Part shown: positions 8,055 to 17,936 of the stretch, piece after piece | Layout: every line of letters begins with the position of its first letter | Numbering within the stretch: position 1 is the stretch's first letter | From: Verrucomicrobiia bacterium | GTDB lineage: Bacteria > Verrucomicrobiota > Verrucomicrobiia > Limisphaerales > JADLHS01 | Assembly (NCBI GenBank): GCA_026125285.1 | Contig: JAHCLO010000036.1 | Coordinates: 1 to 64,000 of the forward strand | Length of the DNA: 64,000 nt | Direction: 5' to 3' | The notes under the pieces: generated by a model | The model's input: only the letters and a program-made list of their open reading frames with translations | The model's database searches: none | Told to the model about the DNA's origin: nothing | Translations under genes and position numbers: made by a program

Positions 8055-9193
8055 CCCTGTTCCCTCCGGATTTTGTACCACCAGCCAATCGCCACCACCA
8101 CCAATACCGCGGCGCCGGCCACCAGAAGCACCCACAACATGCGGCTGGAAGTATCCAGGGCAACAACAGTCGTCGCCCCACTGGGCGTGGGCGACGTCGC
8201 AACGGCGGGCGCAGGTTCATCGGACATCGGAGAGTCGGTCGCGATCTCTTCCACCGATACTTCCGAGTATCCAATCCCCGGTGCCACGCCCGGCAGTTTG
8301 CGCACCTGCCCCGCAGTTGGTCCGCGCAGAACGATGCGACTGACTTCCGCGCGCACCATCGGATTCTCCGGGTCAAACCCAAGCCGCTGCACGGCCAGAC
8401 GCTGGCGATCCGCGTCCCACCGCGCCGGCAGCAGCGGCCCTTTCATCCACTCACGATCCAATTCACATTCGCAATCCTGGCCGATGATGACGAGTCGCTC
8501 CTGTAAAACGGTCTGGGTAATCAGCGGTCCCTCCAACGGGCTGCCAATGCGCCGGCCGCGACCAAACACCACTGCCACCCGCGGTTCATTTGCCGGCTCG
8601 GGAGCAAAGCCCAATCCCCACAACGTCACACGCTCGCGAGCCGCCGTGTCCGCTGTCACGCGAATCAGCTTCGGCGGCGTGTCCACCGGCTTGGGCATGG
8701 AAGGCAGCAACCGGGTCACGGCGCGAATCGCCGCCTCACTGGCCGACCGCACGCGCGCCACCTCCGCTGCGGGACCGCCTTCAATCAGAATCACGACGGC
8801 GAACGCGTTAAGCGCTGCTTCATGAATCTCCGCGCGTAGCGGCGACAGCGCCACCGATTCAATCAGCGCCGTGGCGGCCGGCACCTCCATCGGCAATTCA
8901 TCACCTTGCGCTATCAGCAACTTGCGGCCATCTGCCGCCACTAGCGTCAGCGTCGGCACCGCCATTGTGGTCTCTTCACGCGCGCTAAAAACAATGTTTG
9001 CATCCAGGAGACTCGCGGCGGCGATGCGGCGATAAACGTCGCCGCGCGCCCCAAGGTCATTGCCCGCCAGCACCAATTGGTAGGGTTCGTCGCCGAGGTC
9101 CACAAACCCGGTATCGCGCACCGAATAACGGCACGCCCACGCCACGCTGAGGAGCGTAAGAAACACGAAGAGGATGACGGCTCGTTGTTTCAC
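8051..9193 (-). CDS. two-TM envelope protein, unknown function
   Basis: 380 aa from the GTG at 9193, which overlaps the stop of the ThiF-like gene by 4 nt, matching the spacing style of this operon; an ATG upstream would lie inside that gene. It has an N-terminal TM or signal segment (AVILFVFLTLLSVAWAC; the Cys could be a lipobox), about 310 extracytoplasmic residues with no family I recognise, a Pro/Ala/Thr linker, and a C-terminal TM (MLWVLLVAGAAVLVVVAIGWW). Position between the Mo/W-type genes and FtsX suggests an accessory envelope protein. Confidence 0.7.
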   Translation of the reverse strand: MKQRAVILFVFLTLLSVAWACRYSVRDTGFVDLGDEPYQLVLAGNDLGARGDVYRRIAAASLLDANIVFSAREETTMAVPTLTLVAADGRKLLIAQGDELPMEVPAATALIESVALSPLRAEIHEAALNAFAVVILIEGGPAAEVARVRSASEAAIRAVTRLLPSMPKPVDTPPKLIRVTADTAARERVTLWGLGFAPEPANEPRVAVVFGRGRRIGSPLEGPLITQTVLQERLVIIGQDCECELDREWMKGPLLPARWDADRQRLAVQRLGFDPENPMVRAEVSRIVLRGPTAGQVRKLPGVAPGIGYSEVSVEEIATDSPMSDEPAPAVATSPTPSGATTVVALDTSSRMLWVLLVAGAAVLVVVAIGWWYKIRREQG

Positions 9194-9981
9194 TTGGCTT
9201 TGCTTTCGGGGCACAGCCTGCCACATTCCGCACAATCCGCCAACCTTTGGATTCGGACCTGACGAAACGTCATTGACCGCAGGTCGCCGATCAACATCCG
9301 GCCCGCCAAAGGCTCACCCAAACCGGCCAGCACTTTCACGACTTCCACAGCCGCCAGCGACCCGGCGGTGGCCGACACCGCGCCCAGCACGGGGAAGCGG
9401 CGCGTCCAATGCGGATTGGACTCCGGATACAAGCAGCGCAAGCACGGCGTGCGGCCCGGAATCAGAGTGGTCAGATGCAGTTCCAAATCATACACGGCAC
9501 ACTCGATCATGGGCTTGCGCAACACCACTGCGGCGTGGTTCAAAGCGAAGCGCTCCTGAAACAGCGGCGCGCAATCCACGATTACGTCTGCCTCACGGGC
9601 CAGTGGTTCCGCGTTTTCCGTGCTCGCGTTCTCCAGCACCGTCACGATGTCCAGCCGCGGATTCAATGCGCGCAGCTTCTCCACCGCGGAGGTCAGTCGC
9701 GCCGTGCCAATGCGATCATGCGTCATCAACGTCTGCCGGTTCAAATCACTGGGTTTGATGTTGCCGGCGTGCGCGAGGATCAGGCGGCCCACCCCTGCGG
9801 CGGCCAGTTGCCAGGCCACCGACCCACCCAATCCGCCGATGCGGGAGATCAAGACAGTGGCGCCTTTGAGCCGGCGCTGGCCGGCTTCACCGAAGCCTTC
9901 GATGTCCAACTGCCATTCATACACGGCCCGCTCCTCGGCGTTCAACGGCGGAAGCTCGTGGCCGGGCGTCCCTTCAACCAT
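9190..9981 (-). CDS. ThiF/MoeB/HesA-like E1 protein, variant active site
   Basis: 263 aa. The ATG at 9981 overlaps the stop of the ATPase gene by 8 nt. The MoeB fold is clear: a Gly-rich nucleotide loop (IGGLGG, about 48-53), the conserved LNRQ (80-83), and two Cys pairs for a structural zinc (CLRC at 180-183 and CAEC near the C-terminus). Two features differ from MoeB/ThiF: the acidic strand end after the Gly loop is AHAGN rather than an Asp-rich one, and the usual D-C-T-D motif reads DCAP (136-139), removing the second Asp. E1 proteins of this family adenylate the C-terminal Gly of a sulfur carrier. Its place after ModABC-like genes suggests a role in Mo/W cofactor assembly; no carrier gene is visible. 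Confidence 0.8.
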   Translation of the reverse strand: MVEGTPGHELPPLNAEERAVYEWQLDIEGFGEAGQRRLKGATVLISRIGGLGGSVAWQLAAAGVGRLILAHAGNIKPSDLNRQTLMTHDRIGTARLTSAVEKLRALNPRLDIVTVLENASTENAEPLAREADVIVDCAPLFQERFALNHAAVVLRKPMIECAVYDLELHLTTLIPGRTPCLRCLYPESNPHWTRRFPVLGAVSATAGSLAAVEVVKVLAGLGEPLAGRMLIGDLRSMTFRQVRIQRLADCAECGRLCPESKAK

Positions 9982-10618
9982 GATGCACCTCCAATTTGCC
10001 ATCGTGAAGTTGCAGAACGCAGTCCGCCAGCCGCTCGGCTTCGGCACTGCTGTGCGTGATGTGCAGCACGGTGACACCCGTGCGGGTCTGGATTTCCTCG
10101 AGCAGCCTGCACATGGCGTCCCGCGTTTCCTCGTCCAACGCGCCCAGCGGTTCGTCCAGGCACAACACGCGCGGTTGAAACGCCAGCGCGCGGCCGAGCG
10201 CGATGCGTTGGATTTCACCGCCGCTCAATCCGGCCACCGAACGCTCCAGCAACGGCGTGATGCCCAGCCAGCCGGCCAGTTCTTCAACGCGCTGCCGGAT
10301 GAGCGCCACCGGCTGGTTGCGCACCGCCAGCGAGAACCCCAGTTGCTCGCGCACCTTCAAGTGGGGAAACAACGCGGCGTCCTGGGGCACAAAACCGATG
10401 TTGCGTCGCGCCGGCGGCCAATCCGTCATATCGTCCGTGCCCAAGCGGATGCGACCACTCTCGACGCGACGCAAACCGCAGATGGCTTCCAGCAGCGTCG
10501 TCTTGCCCGACCCGGTGCGGCCCATCAGCACGGCGTAACTGCCCGGCGGCAAGGCAAACGAAAGTCCGCGCAGCGCAAACTTGCCGGCGGAGATGGTGAG
10601 TTGTTCGACCGTGATCAT
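9974..10618 (-). CDS. modC: ModC-type molybdate/tungstate ABC ATPase
   Basis: 214 aa from the ATG at 10618, overlapping the permease stop by 4 nt. Walker A GRTGSGKTT, signature LSGGEIQRIALGRAL, Walker B VLCLDEPLGALD and switch HITHSS are all present. The APLGALD-type Walker B and neighbours identify the molybdate/sulfate/tungstate importer class. It is shorter than typical ModC (about 350 aa) because it lacks the C-terminal Mop oxyanion-binding domain, as in many WtpC/TupC proteins. It should energise the permease encoded just upstream. Confidence 0.85.
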   Translation of the reverse strand: MITVEQLTISAGKFALRGLSFALPPGSYAVLMGRTGSGKTTLLEAICGLRRVESGRIRLGTDDMTDWPPARRNIGFVPQDAALFPHLKVREQLGFSLAVRNQPVALIRQRVEELAGWLGITPLLERSVAGLSGGEIQRIALGRALAFQPRVLCLDEPLGALDEETRDAMCRLLEEIQTRTGVTVLHITHSSAEAERLADCVLQLHDGKLEVHHG

Positions 10619-11448
10619 GACCGGCGGGGTTCGCCCAGGGCGGTTTCCCGTCCCCAATGACGCAGAACGAACAAGGCCGCAACGGCGGTCACGACCATTA
10701 ACAGCGAAACCGCCACGGCGGCTTCAAGATTGCCGACGCTTAACTCCAGAAACACCGTGGTGGACAACACCTCGGTCTTGAAGCGCGTAGCGCCGGAGAA
10801 AACCAGAATCGGTCCGAATTCACCCAGCGAACGCGCCCAGGCCAGCGTGGCCGCGGCCAACATGCCGCGCCGCGCCGCCGGGAACGCCACGAGCCAGAAG
10901 GCTTGCGCCCGATGGCAGCCCAGCGTCAGCGCCACCTGCTCGGGGCGCGGGCTGAGTTGGTCGAAGGTCGTTCGCATCGTCCGCACCGCGAAGGCGCAGG
11001 CCACCATGAATTGCGCGAGGATCACACTGGGGATGGCGTACGTAACCGGAAAGAACTGTTCAAGCGCCCGGCCCGGAGCCGTCTGGAACAGAATGAGCAG
11101 ACTCAGACCCACCACCAGCGGCGGCAGCACAATCGGGATTTCCACAATCAGGTCAACGATCTCCCGCCCGGGAAAACGGGTGCGCGAGAGCAGATAACCA
11201 AGCGGCACGGCGACCCAGAGCGAGAGCAGGGTCGTGAGCGTGCAGGACAACAGACTGAGGCGGATCGCATAGCGAATCTCCGGGCTTTGCAGAGCCTGCC
11301 AAAGATGTCCTGGCGTTGTGTAGGCCGCATCCGCCACCAGCATGGCCAGCAACAAAAACACGTACAGGCCGCCAATCAATCCCAGCACCGCGTAAAACCG
11401 CCGGTCACTGCCGGACAACGGCGCGTGGTCCCCAGCCAGGCGGTTCAC
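10615..11448 (-). CDS. modB: ModB/TupB-type ABC permease
   Basis: 277 aa, GTG start overlapping the binding-protein stop by 4 nt. Several TM segments are visible (YAVLGLIGGLYVFLLLAMLV, IPIVLPPLVVGLSLLILF, AVAVSLLMVVTAVAALFVL). The ATPase-contact loop is recognisable as ARSLGEFGPILVFSG, the form found in molybdate and tungstate permeases. It lies between its binding protein and its ATPase. Oxyanion specificity (Mo or W) cannot be decided from the permease. Confidence 0.88.
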   Translation of the reverse strand: MNRLAGDHAPLSGSDRRFYAVLGLIGGLYVFLLLAMLVADAAYTTPGHLWQALQSPEIRYAIRLSLLSCTLTTLLSLWVAVPLGYLLSRTRFPGREIVDLIVEIPIVLPPLVVGLSLLILFQTAPGRALEQFFPVTYAIPSVILAQFMVACAFAVRTMRTTFDQLSPRPEQVALTLGCHRAQAFWLVAFPAARRGMLAAATLAWARSLGEFGPILVFSGATRFKTEVLSTTVFLELSVGNLEAAVAVSLLMVVTAVAALFVLRHWGRETALGEPRRS

Positions 11449-12941
11449 GGCGCGGCCTCCTTGCGCCAGCGAAACCCGGTGGCCGTGAAGCGGGACTGCG
11501 ACTGCGCGGAACTCAATGCGGCGATCAATCGCTGCATGAGCCGGGGATACACTGTTTGCTGATGAATCGCCACAGGTTGGATGGCGGTCGCGCCCGGCAA
11601 CTCGATGGGTTGCACGGCAAGGTGATCGCCCGCCGCCACCGTGTTGGCTTCATAGACAATCACGGCATCAAGTCCGCCGGCGCGCAACTGATTCACCAAC
11701 AGATCGGCGGTCGGCGTCTGCACCACCACGTTGGCCATGAGTCCCTCGTAAAGACCGTGCTGCCGCAACAGTCGGGCGGTCAGCGCGCCGAGTGCGCTCT
11801 GTTGCTCGTTGGCCACGCCGAGTTTCAAGCCGGGCTGCGTGAGCGACTGGAGATCGCGCAAGCCGCGTGGATTGCCGGGTGGGGTGGCGATCACCATACT
11901 GGTTTCCGCCAAAGCCAGCGCCGGGGTGAATTCATCGCCCACGGTGCGCATGAAGGACACGTCGCACGCGAAGTAGCCATCGGGTTTCTGCCCGGCACGA
12001 ATCTGCGCCGTGAGAATCCCGCAGCCATTGTAAATGCGGTTGATGCGCACGCCCTCGCGCTGCTCGAACTCCCGCAGCGTTTCCTCAATGGCGACGCGGT
12101 TCACACCGCCGCTGAACAACACCAGTTCCGGTGTCTCACTCCAGCGATCTCCCGGCATCGGGATAAAACCCTCTTGCTCGAAGTGCCGCAGCCCGCGTTC
12201 GGGAGCGCCGAGAAAGCGCGCCAGGCGCAGCGCCGCCGCCGGCTGGCGGCACGAACGCAGGACGCCCACGCCCACTTCAGATCCCACCGAACCAAGAACC
12301 CCGCTGGCCACCGCTTCAAGCTCCGCGTATTGGCGGACGGTGACATCCCAGACGATCACCGCGTCGGCGCTGCCGAGTTTCACGTCGTTGGCGAGATCGT
12401 TGACGGTGGGTTTGAACGCCCGGGCGTGCGCCGCCAGCGCATCCCACCGCCCATCTGCCACCAGCGCACGGCGGGCGACCTGGCCAACGGCAGCCGCGCC
12501 GGGATTGGGCAACACCAAGCGCACGTCCGCTCGCAGGAGATCATCAAACGTAAGAACGGCTTTCGGATTTCCTCTGGCCACCGCGATCACCGGTGTCATT
12601 CGGGCCAGAGGAATCATTTCGGCCACCAGGTCCGCGGCGCGGGCTTGATCCAGAATCAAGTGATCGGCCGCAATAAACAAATCGCCGAGGGCGGCAATCT
12701 TGAGATTGGACAGCAACGTGCCCGAGCCGCCGTACTGGAGTTGCACCCGGGCGCCGGTGGCGGCCTCGAATTCGCGCACAGCTGGTTCCACGGCGGATTT
12801 CAGCCCCGCGGCGCAATACACCAGCAGCGGTTCCGCGGTGCGAACCGGGCCTCGCCGCGAGGCGGAGTTCCACAGCAACAGTCCGCCCAGCCCGACCAGC
12901 AGCAGCAGCGAGCCAAGAACGGTAACGCGCGCCGGATTCAT
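11445..12941 (-). CDS. modA: tandem ModA-like oxyanion-binding protein (two domains)
   Basis: 498 aa, about twice the length of ModA. After an N-terminal membrane anchor or signal (VTVLGSLLLLVGLGGLLLW) there are two consecutive periplasmic binding domains: one at about 38-265 (LLVYCAAGLKSAVEPAVREF, YGGSGTLLSNLK) and one at about 278-490 (ELVLFSGGVNRVAIEETLRE, YNGCGILTAQIR, FACDVSFM). Both carry the ModA-type first strand and the Gly-containing oxyanion loop, but with different residues, so they may bind different ligands or cooperate. The start is the ATG at 12941, 25 nt after phnW ends. It is the first gene of the Mo/W transport block. Confidence 0.85.
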   Translation of the reverse strand: MNPARVTVLGSLLLLVGLGGLLLWNSASRRGPVRTAEPLLVYCAAGLKSAVEPAVREFEAATGARVQLQYGGSGTLLSNLKIAALGDLFIAADHLILDQARAADLVAEMIPLARMTPVIAVARGNPKAVLTFDDLLRADVRLVLPNPGAAAVGQVARRALVADGRWDALAAHARAFKPTVNDLANDVKLGSADAVIVWDVTVRQYAELEAVASGVLGSVGSEVGVGVLRSCRQPAAALRLARFLGAPERGLRHFEQEGFIPMPGDRWSETPELVLFSGGVNRVAIEETLREFEQREGVRINRIYNGCGILTAQIRAGQKPDGYFACDVSFMRTVGDEFTPALALAETSMVIATPPGNPRGLRDLQSLTQPGLKLGVANEQQSALGALTARLLRQHGLYEGLMANVVVQTPTADLLVNQLRAGGLDAVIVYEANTVAAGDHLAVQPIELPGATAIQPVAIHQQTVYPRLMQRLIAALSSAQSQSRFTATGFRWRKEAAP

Positions 12942-12966
12942 GCTGCCACCCTGGGACGACGCTGCT

Positions 12967-14097
12967 TCACGGTCTGACACCCATCTCGCCCAGCACCGCT
13001 TCGATGGCGTGGACCAGTTGCTCCAGCTCGGACGGGAACAGGCGGCCAATGTTGCCGATGCGGAACGTGTCCACCTGCGTGAGCTTCCCGGGATAAATGA
13101 TGAATCCCCGGTCACTCAACTTGCGGTAAAAAGTGTTGAAGTCGAATCCGGCCGTCGGGTAATGGAACGCCGTGATGATGTGGCTCTGCACTGAAGGATT
13201 GAGCAAGAGCCGGAAGCCCAGTCGCTTCATACCGGCGAGCAGCGTTTCGTGATTGCGCTGGTAGCGCTCGCTCCGCGCGGCCACGCCGCCTTCGGCTTCC
13301 AACTCCCGCAACGCCTGATCGAAGGCCAGGATCACGTGCGTTGGCGGCGTGTAACGGAACTGGCCGCTCTTCTCGAATCCTTTGAGCTGGCCCAACAAAT
13401 CGAGACTGAGGCTGCGCGCCCATCCTTCGGTGGCCAGCAACCGCGCGCGACGAACGAAAATGAAGGAGAATCCCGGCACGCCCTCGATGCACTTGTTGGA
13501 CGAGGAAACGAGGTAATCAATCTGGCAGGCTTCAAAGTCAATCGGCATCCCGCCAAAACTACTCATCGCGTCCACCACATAAACCTTGCCGTGGCGTTTC
13601 GCCACCTGTCCGAGGGCTGCGATGGGATTCAGAATGCCAGTCGTGGTTTCGCAATGGACCACCGCCACGTGCGTCACCGCGGGATTGTCCTTGAGGCAGA
13701 CTTCGAGTGCCGCGGGATCACCGGCGGTGTCCTCGGGCGTGCGCAAGACGACGTGGTCAATCTTCGCCTGCTTGAGCATCAGCACAATGCGGTCGCCGTA
13801 AGCGCCGTTGGTGAGCACCGCCACTTTGCCGTTGGGCGGAACGCAAGATTGAAAGATCGCCTCCACACCGAAGGTGCCGCTGCCCTGGAGCAACACGACC
13901 TCCCAGCCGGACTCCCGCGAAACGCCGGCCAGTTCGAGCAGGCGTTCGCGCACGCTGGCGACGAGCGCGTTAAACTCGAAATGCCACGAGCCGGCATCGT
14001 GCAGCATCGCTCGTTTGACGGTCAGGCTGGTCGTGAGCGGACCGGGGGTGAATAACAGCTTGTCACGGGCGGAAGGGAGGTTCGATTCAAGGTTCAT
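12967..14097 (-). CDS. phnW: 2-aminoethylphosphonate:pyruvate aminotransferase
   Basis: 376 aa. PhnW converts 2-aminoethylphosphonate and pyruvate to phosphonoacetaldehyde and alanine using PLP. Recognition is by family pattern along the whole length: LFTPGPLTTS near the N-terminus, LLQGSGTFGVEA (69-80), SETTTG-like CETTTG (149-154), VVDAMSSFGG with the cofactor Asp (176), the PLP lysine in SSSNKCIEGVPGF (K202), and a YPGKLTQVDTFRIGNIG end. I start at the ATG at 14097; an upstream TTG would add six residues. The MFS transporter and PbfA-like genes upstream support a phosphonate role. Confidence 0.9.
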   Translation of the reverse strand: MNLESNLPSARDKLLFTPGPLTTSLTVKRAMLHDAGSWHFEFNALVASVRERLLELAGVSRESGWEVVLLQGSGTFGVEAIFQSCVPPNGKVAVLTNGAYGDRIVLMLKQAKIDHVVLRTPEDTAGDPAALEVCLKDNPAVTHVAVVHCETTTGILNPIAALGQVAKRHGKVYVVDAMSSFGGMPIDFEACQIDYLVSSSNKCIEGVPGFSFIFVRRARLLATEGWARSLSLDLLGQLKGFEKSGQFRYTPPTHVILAFDQALRELEAEGGVAARSERYQRNHETLLAGMKRLGFRLLLNPSVQSHIITAFHYPTAGFDFNTFYRKLSDRGFIIYPGKLTQVDTFRIGNIGRLFPSELEQLVHAIEAVLGEMGVRP

Positions 14098-14139
14098 AGG
14101 GAATCCATCATGCAATACCGAGCTTCACTTATTCGTGGT

Positions 14140-15444
14140 TCATTGGGTCACTGCGGGTGGCGTAGCCGAATTGGGTCGCCGGCCAAACCGCCAGGGCCAA
14201 CCATACAGAAAGAGACACAACACGGCTGACATCAAGGCCAGACCGGCCAGACAGTCGAAGCCGAGCCGGTATCCGCCCAGGTCCAGAATCCGGCCAAATT
14301 GTTGACCGGCCAATATCGCCGCCAGATAGCCCACGCCATCAACAAGACCCGCCACGGTGGCGACGTATTCTTTCCCCCGGATTTCGACCGCCAACACCCC
14401 CGCAAGGAGGCTGTAAGGGCCGTAGGCCAGGAAACCGATCGCGCCGACGCCCGCCGTGGCCAGCCACATATTGCGCGAAGCCAGGACCGGAAGCAAATAG
14501 ATGAAGACCGCCAGCAAACCGAGAATGGTGAAAAGCAGCCAGGTGCGCGTGAGGTGACCGATGCGGCCAAATACCCAGCCCAGCAGCACGATCCCGACCG
14601 CACCGCACGCATCAAACGGCGTCGAGAGAAACGCGGCGATCCGGCTGGACATCTCGTCCCCGCCAGTGGTTTTGAAGAAATCAACGGTCCAGGTGTTGAA
14701 GGTTTCGCGCAGCAACGTCAGCGTGAAACTCAGCGCGCACACGATCCAGAAACGGCGAATCGCCAGCAGGTCCACCACGTGGCGAAATTGAAACCCCGCG
14801 GCACGGTTTTGTCCGGCATCCGCTTTTACATCCCGCGTGTTGTCACCCCGGGGCAGAACCACCCAGCACAGCATCAGCAGGGCAGCGAGCACGATCGAAG
14901 GGCCGCTCATCACCCAGCGCCAGTCGTTGCCGCTCCAATCGGCAATGACGCCCGCCAGCAAGGTCGCGCATACACCGCCAAACACGAATCCCAGCGAAAG
15001 CACGCCCATGCTCAACGCCATCAGCCGGCCCGGAAACCAATCGGGCACCAACTTGACCATCCCGCCCCAGCCCGCCGAGCCGGCGAGCCGGTTCAGACTG
15101 TAAACCAGCGTCAGCATCGGCAGCGTACTCACCAGGCCACCGAACGCGCCAAACACTGCCACCGCCAACAACGCCAATAGAAAGGAAATTCGGCCACCGA
15201 TGCGGTCTATGAACGGGCCGAAGGCAAATTTCCCGATCATGTAGGCAATGGTGCTGTAACTGGCCACCATTCCGATCTGCTCTTTCGTCAATCCAAACGC
15301 CTCGCGGATCAACGGATTGGCCACAGCGAAGTTCTTCCGGCAAAGATAAATGCCGATGTAGCCCAGCACCAATATTCCAAGCAAGACCCACGCGCGCGCG
15401 GGTTTCATCGAAGAATGATGCTCCGCCGTGGCGGGGTTGCTCAC
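14140..15444 (-). CDS. MFS transporter of organophosphate:phosphate antiporter type
   Basis: 434 aa, about 12 TM segments. The start is a GTG overlapping the stop of the PbfA-like gene by 4 nt. The N-terminal pattern YIGIYLCRKNFAVANPLI followed by GLTKEQIGMVASYSTIAYM is that of the GlpT/UhpT/UhpC (OPA) group, and the GPFIDRIGGR loop is the MFS signature. OPA carriers exchange phosphorylated compounds for phosphate. Between phnW and the PbfA-like gene, the likely cargo is an organophosphonate such as 2-aminoethylphosphonate, which is an inference from context. Confidence 0.85.
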   Translation of the reverse strand: MSNPATAEHHSSMKPARAWVLLGILVLGYIGIYLCRKNFAVANPLIREAFGLTKEQIGMVASYSTIAYMIGKFAFGPFIDRIGGRISFLLALLAVAVFGAFGGLVSTLPMLTLVYSLNRLAGSAGWGGMVKLVPDWFPGRLMALSMGVLSLGFVFGGVCATLLAGVIADWSGNDWRWVMSGPSIVLAALLMLCWVVLPRGDNTRDVKADAGQNRAAGFQFRHVVDLLAIRRFWIVCALSFTLTLLRETFNTWTVDFFKTTGGDEMSSRIAAFLSTPFDACGAVGIVLLGWVFGRIGHLTRTWLLFTILGLLAVFIYLLPVLASRNMWLATAGVGAIGFLAYGPYSLLAGVLAVEIRGKEYVATVAGLVDGVGYLAAILAGQQFGRILDLGGYRLGFDCLAGLALMSAVLCLFLYGWPWRFGRRPNSATPPAVTQ

Positions 15445-16814
15445 GTGCGCCGACCTTTCACCTCGTTGAGGGCAACTTCAAGCCGCGTCCACGCCTGATC
15501 AAGTTCCTCCTCGGTGATGTTGAGCGGCGGCGCAAACGTGAGCACGTTGCCCTTCGATACCTTGAAGTTCAATCCGTGCCGTAATGCCGCATACATGATC
15601 TGTTCGGCGAGATCGGAGGATTCGCTCCGGCTGCCGGCGATTTCCACGCCGATCAACAATCCCAACCCGCGCACGTCACGCACCAGCGCCTGACCGGCCA
15701 ACCTTCCGCGCAAGTCAGCCACCGTCCTTTGCCCGATGACCGCCGCGCGTTCGACCAGGTTCTGTTCCGCGATGACTTCCAGCGTGGCCAGCCCCGCCGC
15801 ACAGGCTGCCGGATTCTTTTCGTGCGTGTAATGGCCAACGGATTTTTCCGCCGCGATGTTCAAATGCTCACGCACCACCACGCCGGCCAGCGGGAAAACG
15901 CCCCCGCCCAGCCCTTTGCCGAGCACGACAATGTCCGGAACCACGTCGAAATGCTCGAAGGCATAGAAACGCCCGGTGCGACCCAGGCCGATGGGAATTT
16001 CATCGAGCACGAGCAACGCGCCGTGCTTGTCGCACGCGGCGCGGATGCGTTTCCAGTAATCCGGCGGCGGAATCACTGGCACGTTGCGCACCGTTTCCGC
16101 GATCACCGCCGCCACGTCACCCTCGTGTTCCAGCATGTATTCCACATAGTCGGCGCAGGCGAGGCTGCACGACGCCCCGCAGCGGAAGGGACAATGCGTG
16201 GGATCGGGCGGCGGCGCGTGTTCACAACCCGGCAACAGTGGACCCGCGTTGTGGCGGAAGCCATATTCACCGCCAATCGAAATGGCATCCAGCGACGCCC
16301 CATGAAAAGCGTCCCACATGGAAATGGTCTTGAACCGGCCGGTGGCGGCACGCGCCAACTTCAACGCGATGCCGTTGGCCGAGGAGCCGCCAGGCGCGAA
16401 CAGCACGCGGCGAAGGTCGCCCGGAGAAAAACTGACGAGCTTCTCCGCCAGGCGAATCGCCGGTTCATTCGTGTAGCGCCGCGTGCAAAAAGGCAGTTGG
16501 TCGAGTTGTTCCTTGACCGCCGCGATGACGCGCGGATGACCGAAGCCGATCTGGTGGACGTTGTTGCCGTGAAAATCCAGGTAGCGCCGCCCTTCGACAT
16601 CCTCGATCCACGCCCCGCTGGCGCAGCGCAGCGCATTGAGGCAGGGCGTGGACATGGCCTGATGCACAAACCAGCGCGAATCTTCGGCCAACAGCGCCTG
16701 AGTGGCCGGACTCAAATGGCCCGCCTGCCAGGCCTGGCGATGTGGTGAAAGGTTGATGTCGCCCTCGACGCGCAGGCCATCGAGGTTTACCGGGTTGGGA
16801 GACGGGTTTGACAT
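15441..16814 (-). CDS. pbfA: class-III aminotransferase-fold enzyme, probably PbfA-like ammonia-lyase
   Basis: 457 aa from the ATG at 16814; a GTG seven codons earlier is an alternative. PLP-site features are present: WDAFHGASLDAIS (167-179), the cofactor Asp in DEIPIGLGRTG (D271) and the PLP lysine in VLGKGLGGG (K300). In this fold some members are transaminases and others are lyases; PbfA removes ammonia from (R)-1-hydroxy-2-aminoethylphosphonate, giving phosphonoacetaldehyde, and travels with phnW. The phnW/MFS neighbours make that the best guess. A curious Cys ladder at 208, 212, 216 and 220, each four apart, could bind a metal. Ordinary class-III aminotransferase remains possible. Confidence 0.65.
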   Translation of the reverse strand: MSNPSPNPVNLDGLRVEGDINLSPHRQAWQAGHLSPATQALLAEDSRWFVHQAMSTPCLNALRCASGAWIEDVEGRRYLDFHGNNVHQIGFGHPRVIAAVKEQLDQLPFCTRRYTNEPAIRLAEKLVSFSPGDLRRVLFAPGGSSANGIALKLARAATGRFKTISMWDAFHGASLDAISIGGEYGFRHNAGPLLPGCEHAPPPDPTHCPFRCGASCSLACADYVEYMLEHEGDVAAVIAETVRNVPVIPPPDYWKRIRAACDKHGALLVLDEIPIGLGRTGRFYAFEHFDVVPDIVVLGKGLGGGVFPLAGVVVREHLNIAAEKSVGHYTHEKNPAACAAGLATLEVIAEQNLVERAAVIGQRTVADLRGRLAGQALVRDVRGLGLLIGVEIAGSRSESSDLAEQIMYAALRHGLNFKVSKGNVLTFAPPLNITEEELDQAWTRLEVALNEVKGRRT

Positions 16815-16821
16815 GATGATC

Positions 16822-17724
16822 TCACTTGCTGGCACCGACGAACGCCTCGCGCACGGGGCGTGCGATCCAGGCCTCAGGCGCTTGAACCTTCAAGGCGAAC
16901 GCAATGGTGGCGGCCGTGTCGTAGGTGTTTACCGGCGATTGAATCTCGTGACCAGCGCGCACGCCCGGGCCGACCACGAGCCACGGGATTTCTATCTCCG
17001 CCATGGTGGCGCCGCCGTGCCCTTTGCCTTTGCCGCCATGATCGGAGGTCACCAGCAGCAACGTGTGATCTTTGATTCCCGCTTTCTCAATCGCCCCCAT
17101 CACCTCGCCGATAAGCTCGTCGGCCATTGCCACGGCCGCGTAATACTCCGGGGTGCCGTGGCCATACTTGTGCCCGGCGCCATCCACGTGATCGAGGTGG
17201 ATAAAAGTGAGCGTGGGTTTGCGGCGGTGGATGAACTCCACGGCGCGTTGAGTGGTATTGGTCGGTCCGGCGGTGTCTTCGATCACATCCACCGCCTGAC
17301 GCTCGAACAGGTGACCGTAGCCGCCCCAATCATGAAACACACCCAGCGTGGCCCCGGGCATCTGTTCACGCAGCACGCTGAAGATCGTCGGGAAAATCCC
17401 GCCCGGCCCCCGAACCGTGGGCGCGATGTCGTATTTGTCCGGCCGCCAATCGTTGGAAGTAACCCCGTGCTGCTCCGGGCCGGCCCCCATGATCATGGAA
17501 GCCCAATTCGGCCCGCTGGAGGTGGGCATCACCGCCCGTGCCCGCAATGTCCATGCGCCCTGGCTCTGCAGCCGCTTCAGATGGGGCGCCTCGGCGCGCA
17601 ATAAACCGTCCGGGCTAAGGCCGTCCACGCCCACCACGACCACGTGCCTGACCTGCGCCGGCGCACCGGCAACCAGCAAGCCGAAACAGGCAACGAGACT
17701 GAAACTGAGCAATCGCGGAGTCAT
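16822..17724 (-). CDS. secreted alkaline-phosphatase-superfamily hydrolase
   Basis: 300 aa from the ATG at 17724 with a signal peptide (residues 1-24, ending APAQ). Metal and catalytic residues of the nucleotide pyrophosphatase/phosphodiesterase branch are visible: Asp34 in VGVDGLS, a Ser nucleophile in TSSGPNW (about 70, where NPPs usually have Thr) with Asn73, Asp/His in HLDHVDGAGH (about 178-185), SDHGG (228-229) and His236. It is the first gene of the phosphonate block, 7 nt before the PbfA-like start. It could dephosphorylate or release phosphonates from esters outside the cytoplasm. It differs from PhnA phosphonoacetate hydrolase, which belongs to the same superfamily but is longer and cytoplasmic. 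Confidence 0.8.
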   Translation of the reverse strand: MTPRLLSFSLVACFGLLVAGAPAQVRHVVVVGVDGLSPDGLLRAEAPHLKRLQSQGAWTLRARAVMPTSSGPNWASMIMGAGPEQHGVTSNDWRPDKYDIAPTVRGPGGIFPTIFSVLREQMPGATLGVFHDWGGYGHLFERQAVDVIEDTAGPTNTTQRAVEFIHRRKPTLTFIHLDHVDGAGHKYGHGTPEYYAAVAMADELIGEVMGAIEKAGIKDHTLLLVTSDHGGKGKGHGGATMAEIEIPWLVVGPGVRAGHEIQSPVNTYDTAATIAFALKVQAPEAWIARPVREAFVGASK

Positions 17725-17936
17725 CTGTTTCAAGCCAAGCCGAATCCAGAAATGGTTCCCAGCAAGGCGGACTTGGTCAATGCCGCAACGCCGAAGCCTG
17801 GACCTGTGAAGTCGCGCCCTTTGACTTGGATCGTCTGATTGTGCATTGCGGCAAAGCAGTAATGAGGACGGTGCTCCACGTCAACCACGAACGACACCAG
17901 GAACGCACGAATTCAAAGTGCGGGAGGTCGTATCTC

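Follow-up and report, generated by a model that had tools for sequence, protein, structure and literature searches.

An exported alkaline-phosphatase-superfamily enzyme heads a PhnW/PbfA block in a Verrucomicrobiia genome and is a candidate aminophosphonate-ester hydrolase

What becomes of the phosphonoacetaldehyde made by a phosphonate block that encodes no enzyme to split it, and what does an exported phosphatase-like enzyme do at the head of that block? The question is raised by a window of 64 kb, by which we mean the whole stretch of DNA analysed, on contig C30 of a Verrucomicrobiia genome (G000; assembly of 7.16 Mb in 79 contigs, 95.04% complete). Four of its genes form the block, and the first encodes an exported enzyme of the alkaline phosphatase superfamily, here called APSF. 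An earlier note on this DNA offered two answers as alternatives, that the C-P hydrolase lies elsewhere or that APSF supplies free phosphonates by cleaving esters. The first answer proved right, and the second is probably true in addition to it: judged from sequence, the exported enzyme probably frees phosphonates from esters while PhnX is encoded elsewhere. The block consists of the following genes.

16822..17724, minus strand: APSF, NPP-like, about 300 amino acids (PF01663, 113.9 bits; AlphaFold2 model; hydrophobic N-terminus)
15441..16835, minus strand: PbfA (NF049939, 656.5 bits, cut-off 525)
14140..15444, minus strand: MFS permease of the organophosphate:phosphate antiporter type (PF07690; TIGR00881, 151.5 bits, below the cut-off of 407.75)
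12967..14115, minus strand: PhnW, 2-aminoethylphosphonate--pyruvate transaminase (TIGR02326, 486.7 bits, cut-off 400.8)

The genes are read in the order APSF, PbfA, GlpT-like MFS permease, PhnW, with an overlap of 14 bases between APSF and PbfA, an overlap of 4 bases between PbfA and the permease, and a gap of 24 bases before PhnW. The longest open reading frame (ORF) of APSF (17733-16822) opens with TTG at 17733, and its first ATG is at 17724. PhnW scores above its curated equivalog cut-off, and also above that of NF010006 (499.3 bits, cut-off 296), and PbfA above its curated equivalog_domain cut-off. The block is thus real, with all four genes where they had been placed; the text of the earlier note named the others and passed over the GlpT-like permease, whose gene lies between those of PbfA and PhnW. 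This permease is part of the block and is probably, by its family, an AepP-like importer of 2-aminoethylphosphonate. Promoter and terminator scans did no better than shuffled sequence (1 vs 1.6; 15 vs 12.8).

The missing hydrolase lies on another contig. A phnX gene at 19630-20388 of contig C24 reaches 306.2 bits on TIGR01422, above the curated equivalog cut-off of 220, and is the only PhnX match above cut-off in the genome, so that there is a known fate for the phosphonoacetaldehyde that the block produces, and a genome devoid of C-P hydrolase is ruled out. A profile search of the genome found no PhnA above cut-off, and none of PhnY, PhnX and PhnA was above cut-off among the ten neighbouring window proteins, to which the search for PhnY was confined; the claim that the block itself has no C-P hydrolase accordingly holds for PhnX and PhnA. 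The separate location of the C-P hydrolase is the ordinary half of the puzzle. The earlier note had named two findings that together would count against its ester idea, phnX elsewhere in the genome and an exported enzyme with ordinary phosphodiesterase activity, and the first of these is what we found. The block is catabolic and not biosynthetic, because PhnJ was not found in the genome search and no phosphoenolpyruvate (PEP) mutase exceeded its cut-off (best match 105.8 bits, cut-off 319.55); the C-P lyase route and phosphonate biosynthesis were rejected on these two results, respectively. On contig C24 a second GlpT-like permease lies 352 bases upstream of phnX on the same strand (TIGR00881, 263.5 bits, below 407.75), and 36 bases before it a dehydrogenase falls just under the cut-off of TIGR03366, the 'putative phosphonate catabolism associated alcohol dehydrogenase' (327.9 bits, cut-off 328.1). 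Its substrate is possibly hydroxyethylphosphonate or a different alcohol that leads to phosphonoacetaldehyde. The same line-up of phnX, GlpT-like MFS permease and TIGR03366-like dehydrogenase occurs at L017:9588-13449.

The less ordinary half of the puzzle is APSF. A query against 84,980 species genomes returned 190 relatives, and the best 80 by APSF sequence were studied with up to 6 kb per side; all locus counts below refer to these 80. Neighbours were labelled by BLAST best matches above identity thresholds, with an NCBIfam check on representatives, and one locus, L105, scores 100% in this labelling since it served as a reference. We call a locus linked when at least one of PhnW, PbfA, PhnX, PhnA and PhnY lies within the flanks taken. 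By this measure 40/80 loci are linked (20/38 where each flank reaches 4.5 kb or more), and in 32/80 a phosphonate gene adjoins APSF on the same strand. None of the five genes is carried by any of 15 control loci of distant paralogues from the same class (29-42% identical; some few of them with little flanking sequence). PbfA is the most frequent neighbour (29 loci), followed by PhnW (17), MFS permeases (13), PhnA (9), a glutamate-1-semialdehyde aminomutase (GSAM)-like enzyme (8), PhnY (7), PhnX, SusC and SusD (6 each) and a TIGR03351-like protein (5). PhnX or PhnA stands together with APSF in 15/80 loci, and APSF is therefore no replacement for either. The linked loci, many of them metagenome-assembled, span six named phyla: Verrucomicrobiota (24/35), Acidobacteriota (7/17), Bacteroidota (4/12), Rhodothermota (2/3), Planctomycetota (1/7) and Balneolota (1/1), with 1/2 among unassigned genomes and 0/3 in Hydrogenedentota.

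The association is also seen at the level of genomes. We searched 236 genomes of the class for APSF, PbfA, PhnX, PhnW, PhnA and TIGR03351. APSF of at least 53% identity is present in 9 and PbfA above cut-off in 14, and 8 hold both, so that PbfA occurs in 8/9 APSF genomes against 6/227 others (Fisher p 1.2e-10, and 1.9e-9 when the source genome is left out; uncorrected for kinship, with 6/9 APSF genomes belonging to one family). In the ninth APSF genome, G090, the PbfA gene is incomplete because its contig ends within it.

In sequence and predicted structure APSF finds its best matches among NPP-type enzymes. It exceeds the gathering score of PF01663 (Type I phosphodiesterase / NPP; 113.9 bits, cut-off 23), and NPPs are its first matches in a profile search (E 5.8e-22). 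An AlphaFold2 model built from 53 sequences (pLDDT 92.6, pTM 0.89) is most similar to Xac NPP (Z 30.8, 2.2 A over 255 residues), followed by ENPPs and ENPP7 (Z 30.1), PafA (Z 30.1) and phosphonate monoester hydrolases (PMHs; Z 27.4-27.8), where matches within 1 Z of each other are treated as tied. S73, N94, D37, D184, H188, D231, H232 and H239 are invariant in 53 relatives; we take the roles of S73, N94 and the metal ligands from NPP numbering. Also invariant in these relatives are W77, W96, W136, D181, D205 and E246. Sulfatases and PMHs carry the formylglycine modification motif C/S-x-P-x-R; APSF reads S73-x-P75-N76-W77, with N76 and W77 invariant in the 53 relatives, and so does not have this motif.

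The earlier note had set APSF in the superfamily of PhnA as a distinct enzyme, and its reasons, a serine nucleophile, a signal peptide and a shorter length, are all borne out. The two families align with an hhalign probability of 98.0 over 203 columns, and on TIGR02335, the PhnA equivalog, APSF reaches 33.4 bits, more than an order of magnitude short of the cut-off of 407.55. Two lysines (K145 and K147 in alignment numbering, KxK), assigned a leaving-group role in PhnA in the available excerpt of PMC10574752, are invariant in 10 PhnA-type sequences and stand opposite W136 and G138 (WxG) of APSF; there is no invariant or near-invariant lysine in the 53 APSFs. An identity of APSF with PhnA was rejected on these two grounds. 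Among the 50 structural matches listed there is no PhnA entry, which excludes nothing.

A hydrophobic N-terminus is found in 73 of the 74 APSFs that could be scored (six could not; the sole negative is L065), against 0/23 PhnW and 0/47 PbfA ORFs, comparison counts that include some contigs twice; the test does give false positives on ORFs with over-long starts (3/8 PhnX, 2/11 PhnY). Sixteen long APSF forms, from Bacteroidota, Rhodothermota, Balneolota and Phycisphaerales, add PA14 (16/16), Fn3_assoc (15/16) and CHB_HEX_C_1 (13/16) domains, and SusC and SusD occur together in 6/80 loci, four of which also have PbfA. PA14, CHB_HEX_C_1 and SusC/SusD would point to an extracellular, glycan-side action of APSF.

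We propose, with moderate confidence, that the block is an operon for breaking down aminophosphonates found in ester form outside the cell, with APSF as its candidate exported ester hydrolase. APSF would be exported and, with a two-metal NPP-type site and a serine nucleophile, would cut the P-O bond of esters that 2-aminoethylphosphonate (AEP) or (R)-1-hydroxy-AEP (HAEP) forms with glycans or lipids, while the C-P bond would stay whole. In shape and charge a phosphonate monoester is much like a phosphate diester, and an NPP-type site is therefore a natural esterase for such compounds. The freed aminophosphonate would be imported by the GlpT/AepP-like permease, as its family suggests, and in the cytoplasm PhnW would convert AEP and PbfA R-HAEP into phosphonoacetaldehyde, by the established chemistry of these families. 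PhnX, whose gene is present on contig C24 and whose reaction is established for the family, would split this into acetaldehyde and phosphate, and relatives use PhnY and PhnA, or probably a TIGR03351-type HAD hydrolase, in its place. We regard ester cleavage as probably additional and not alternative to PhnX because APSF recurs by phosphonate genes, is exported, has an NPP-type site without the PhnA lysines and stands with PhnX or PhnA in 15/80 loci. The genes, their linkage, the export signal and the active-site pattern are observed, and the substrate, reaction and transport are what the model supplies. The interpretation of the earlier note is in this sense partly supported, its observation being confirmed.

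To our knowledge, the known hydrolytic phosphonate pathways begin with the free compound, and we know of no well-known enzyme that cuts aminophosphonates loose from larger molecules outside the cytoplasm. APSF is a good candidate, on the strength of its sequence and context, for such an undescribed step. If true, it would be the missing first step by which phosphonate-bearing polymers become a source of phosphorus, and the ability to use such polymers could be read from genomes.

Several observations weigh against this model. None of the five phosphonate genes is found in the other 40/80 loci, including 18/38 with long flanks, nor within 6 kb of APSF in its nearest relative (L041, 76-80% identical), and a genome of the same genus (G011) has PhnW, PhnA, PhnY and PbfA on a contig other than that of its APSF. 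Just 7/16 long forms are linked. Six genomes that have only a 34-38% paralogue all lack PbfA, and two of them (G098, G176) have PhnW and PhnX. Of the control sequences, 4/13 were placed among the APSFs in the tree, as long branches, and the controls do not form a clean outgroup. The nucleophile position holds an invariant Ser in the 53 relatives, where characterised NPPs have Thr, and the structural matches to NPP (Z 30.8) and to the PafA-type phosphomonoesterase (Z 30.1) are tied, and therefore the fold alone does not choose between a diesterase and a monoesterase. A tree of 94 rows mixes linked with unlinked loci, the state changing at least 11 times, a pattern that fits a functional link that has been repeatedly broken or re-formed.

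The tied folds and the half of the loci that have no phosphonate gene also favour the strongest competing explanation, namely that APSF scavenges phosphorus in general, as an exported phosphodiesterase or phosphatase that acts for example on phosphoethanolamine or nucleotide diesters and shares only its regulation with phosphonate genes; secreted purple-acid-phosphatase-like proteins in some APSF loci fit it too. We nevertheless hold this to be unlikely, at perhaps one chance in a handful or slightly better, since the link is specific to PhnW, PbfA, PhnX, PhnA and PhnY and absent in 15/15 distant paralogue loci, PbfA co-occurs in 8/9 APSF genomes, and three genomes (G126, G191, G234) keep APSF with PbfA where PhnW, PhnX and PhnA were not found. 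A little less probable again is an ENPP7-like action on exported or host phosphonolipids, such as ceramide-AEP, and not on glycans. The alkaline sphingomyelinase ENPP7 shares in the tie for the best structural match (Z 30.1), and its release of phosphocholine from sphingomyelin is the same chemistry as head-group release by a phosphodiesterase, whereas the PA14 and CHB_HEX_C_1 domains of the long forms and SusC/SusD in some loci suggest glycans. This possibility is compatible with the proposed ester hydrolase and differs from it in substrate alone. Finally, an exported PhnA-like C-P hydrolase acting on phosphonoacetate or another phosphonate outside the cytoplasm, the missing-hydrolase idea at its strongest, would agree with the shared superfamily and pathways but is very improbable, given the TIGR02335 score, the replacement of KxK by WxG, the presence of PhnX or PhnA in 15/80 loci and the fact that phosphonoacetaldehyde is a cytoplasmic product of PhnW and PbfA whereas APSF is exported.

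Returning to the ester-hydrolase model, its last step varies between genomes in a regular way. The 14 PbfA genomes each contain one, and no more than one, of PhnX (2/14; G000, G078), PhnA (9/14; G011, G067, G073, G084, G135, G211, G216, G221, G244) and a TIGR03351-like hydrolase (3/14; G126, G191, G234). The search thresholds were strict (E 1e-50, 1e-60 and 1e-45), and weaker copies could have escaped them. The TIGR03351-type proteins of the last three genomes, which have neither PhnX nor PhnA and no PhnW match in the strict-threshold search, score 193-208 bits, below the family cut-off of 218.9, and elsewhere in the class such a protein is found only in G017, near its PhnX. The lysine of the PhnX MGxxK motif is kept in 5/5 aligned proteins, and the four that are complete also keep the DxAGTT start; catalytic roles are ascribed to both. 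In G234 the gene lines up with those for a TIGR03364 FAD oxidoreductase (397.9 bits, cut-off 285.1), a DUF5690 protein and PbfA. The gene was located in these APSF or PbfA loci.

L124:4116-4874; L049:6964-7644; L071:4006-4704; L105:2566-3270; L116 and L117:3-380: TIGR03351 HAD gene

The TIGR03351-type HAD hydrolase thus probably substitutes for PhnX in relatives, as its motifs and distribution suggest. The idea of such a phosphonatase is not new, as the TIGR03364 entry is quoted, in the excerpt available of PMC10590968, as associated with 'proposed phosphonatase-like enzymes'. The one-of-three replacement pattern is new as far as the open-licence literature searched shows, and offers a direct and cheap test of TIGR03351 function, for which NCBIfam still says phosphonatase-like. 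It is about an even bet, in our view, that APSF founds an exported aminoethylphosphonyl-ester hydrolase family of several phyla which strips AEP or HAEP from phosphonoglycans or phosphonolipids, that the Bacteroidota SusC/SusD loci with PA14 forms are phosphonoglycan utilisation loci, and that the TIGR03351-type HAD protein acts as phosphonoacetaldehyde hydrolase in the absence of PhnX and PhnA.

Further genes accompany APSF. A second pyridoxal-phosphate enzyme, related to glutamate-1-semialdehyde aminomutase and below cut-offs (324-344 bits), is found in 8/80 loci and in G011; in phosphonate operons it is perhaps an aminophosphonate mutase or lyase. A large protein with a lectin-like Laminin_G_3 domain lies upstream of APSF in several loci, and its family occurs in 10/80.

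L119:5985-7289; L038:8032-9501; L086:7639-8943; L079, L073, L096, L101, L039, L061: GSAM-like pyridoxal-phosphate enzyme
L039:1-3126; L121:3086-6205: Laminin_G_3 protein

Two Rhodothermota proteins (L091:5026-7536, L107:6004-8460; translations read by eye) have a tandem pair of catalytic domains before the PA14 part, and purple-acid-phosphatase-like metallophosphoesterases lie near APSF in Bacteroidota and Rhodothermota loci (L117:9006-10601, L091:2123-3979). In the window, directly 3′ of phnW and on the same strand, positions 9190-12983 encode a binding protein whose single chain matches ModA twice (TIGR01256, 83.4 bits, cut-off 62.5), along with a permease, an ATPase and a ThiF-family protein, which by their families look like molybdate or tungstate uptake; an alpha/beta-hydrolase-like gene lies upstream of APSF. 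Neither this importer with ThiF nor the hydrolase-like gene looks like a pathway member.

Aminophosphonates in nature are mostly held within glycans and lipids, according to the text available of PMC8316502, and an excerpt of PMC5649143 describes marine polysaccharide phosphonate esters as usable by bacteria via C-P lyase. For Maribacter forsetii, PMC11345257 names a SusC/D pair with high expression on laminarin alongside an alkaline phosphatase, an FAD oxidoreductase and a phosphonatase-like hydrolase. In the open-licence literature searched, from which subscription papers and supplements are absent, we found no exported AEP or HAEP ester hydrolase.

The closest known systems are the PhnWX and PhnWYA pathways with PbfA, which channels R-HAEP into phosphonoacetaldehyde (PMC8154272, in excerpt) and has been noted with phnX outside Proteobacteria (PMC12366243, likewise); neither 'alkaline phosphatase' nor 'phosphodiesterase' appears in the main text of either paper. 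As in those pathways, PhnW and PbfA share an operon and PhnX is in the genome, but here phnX is on another contig and an exported alkaline-phosphatase-superfamily gene heads the operon. AepP is a GlpT-like MFS permease for AEP, co-localised with PhnWAY or PhnWX and also reported from Verrucomicrobia, Acidobacteria and Bacteroidetes (PMC8316502, text as available); the block permease is likewise an MFS protein of the organophosphate:phosphate antiporter type in a PhnW locus. NPPs (Xac NPP, ENPP1-7) are the best profile and fold matches of APSF and share its Asn and metal-ligand pattern; APSF differs in having Ser for Thr, about 300 amino acids with a signal peptide against chains of about 380-427, invariant Trp residues of its own and linkage to phosphonate genes. 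PhnA is of the same superfamily, but APSF is exported, shorter, without KxK, far below TIGR02335 and often found beside PhnA itself. Finally, the PMHs (4uph, 4upk, 2w8s) have the fold in common with APSF and the same type of expected reaction, and APSF departs from them in having no formylglycine motif.

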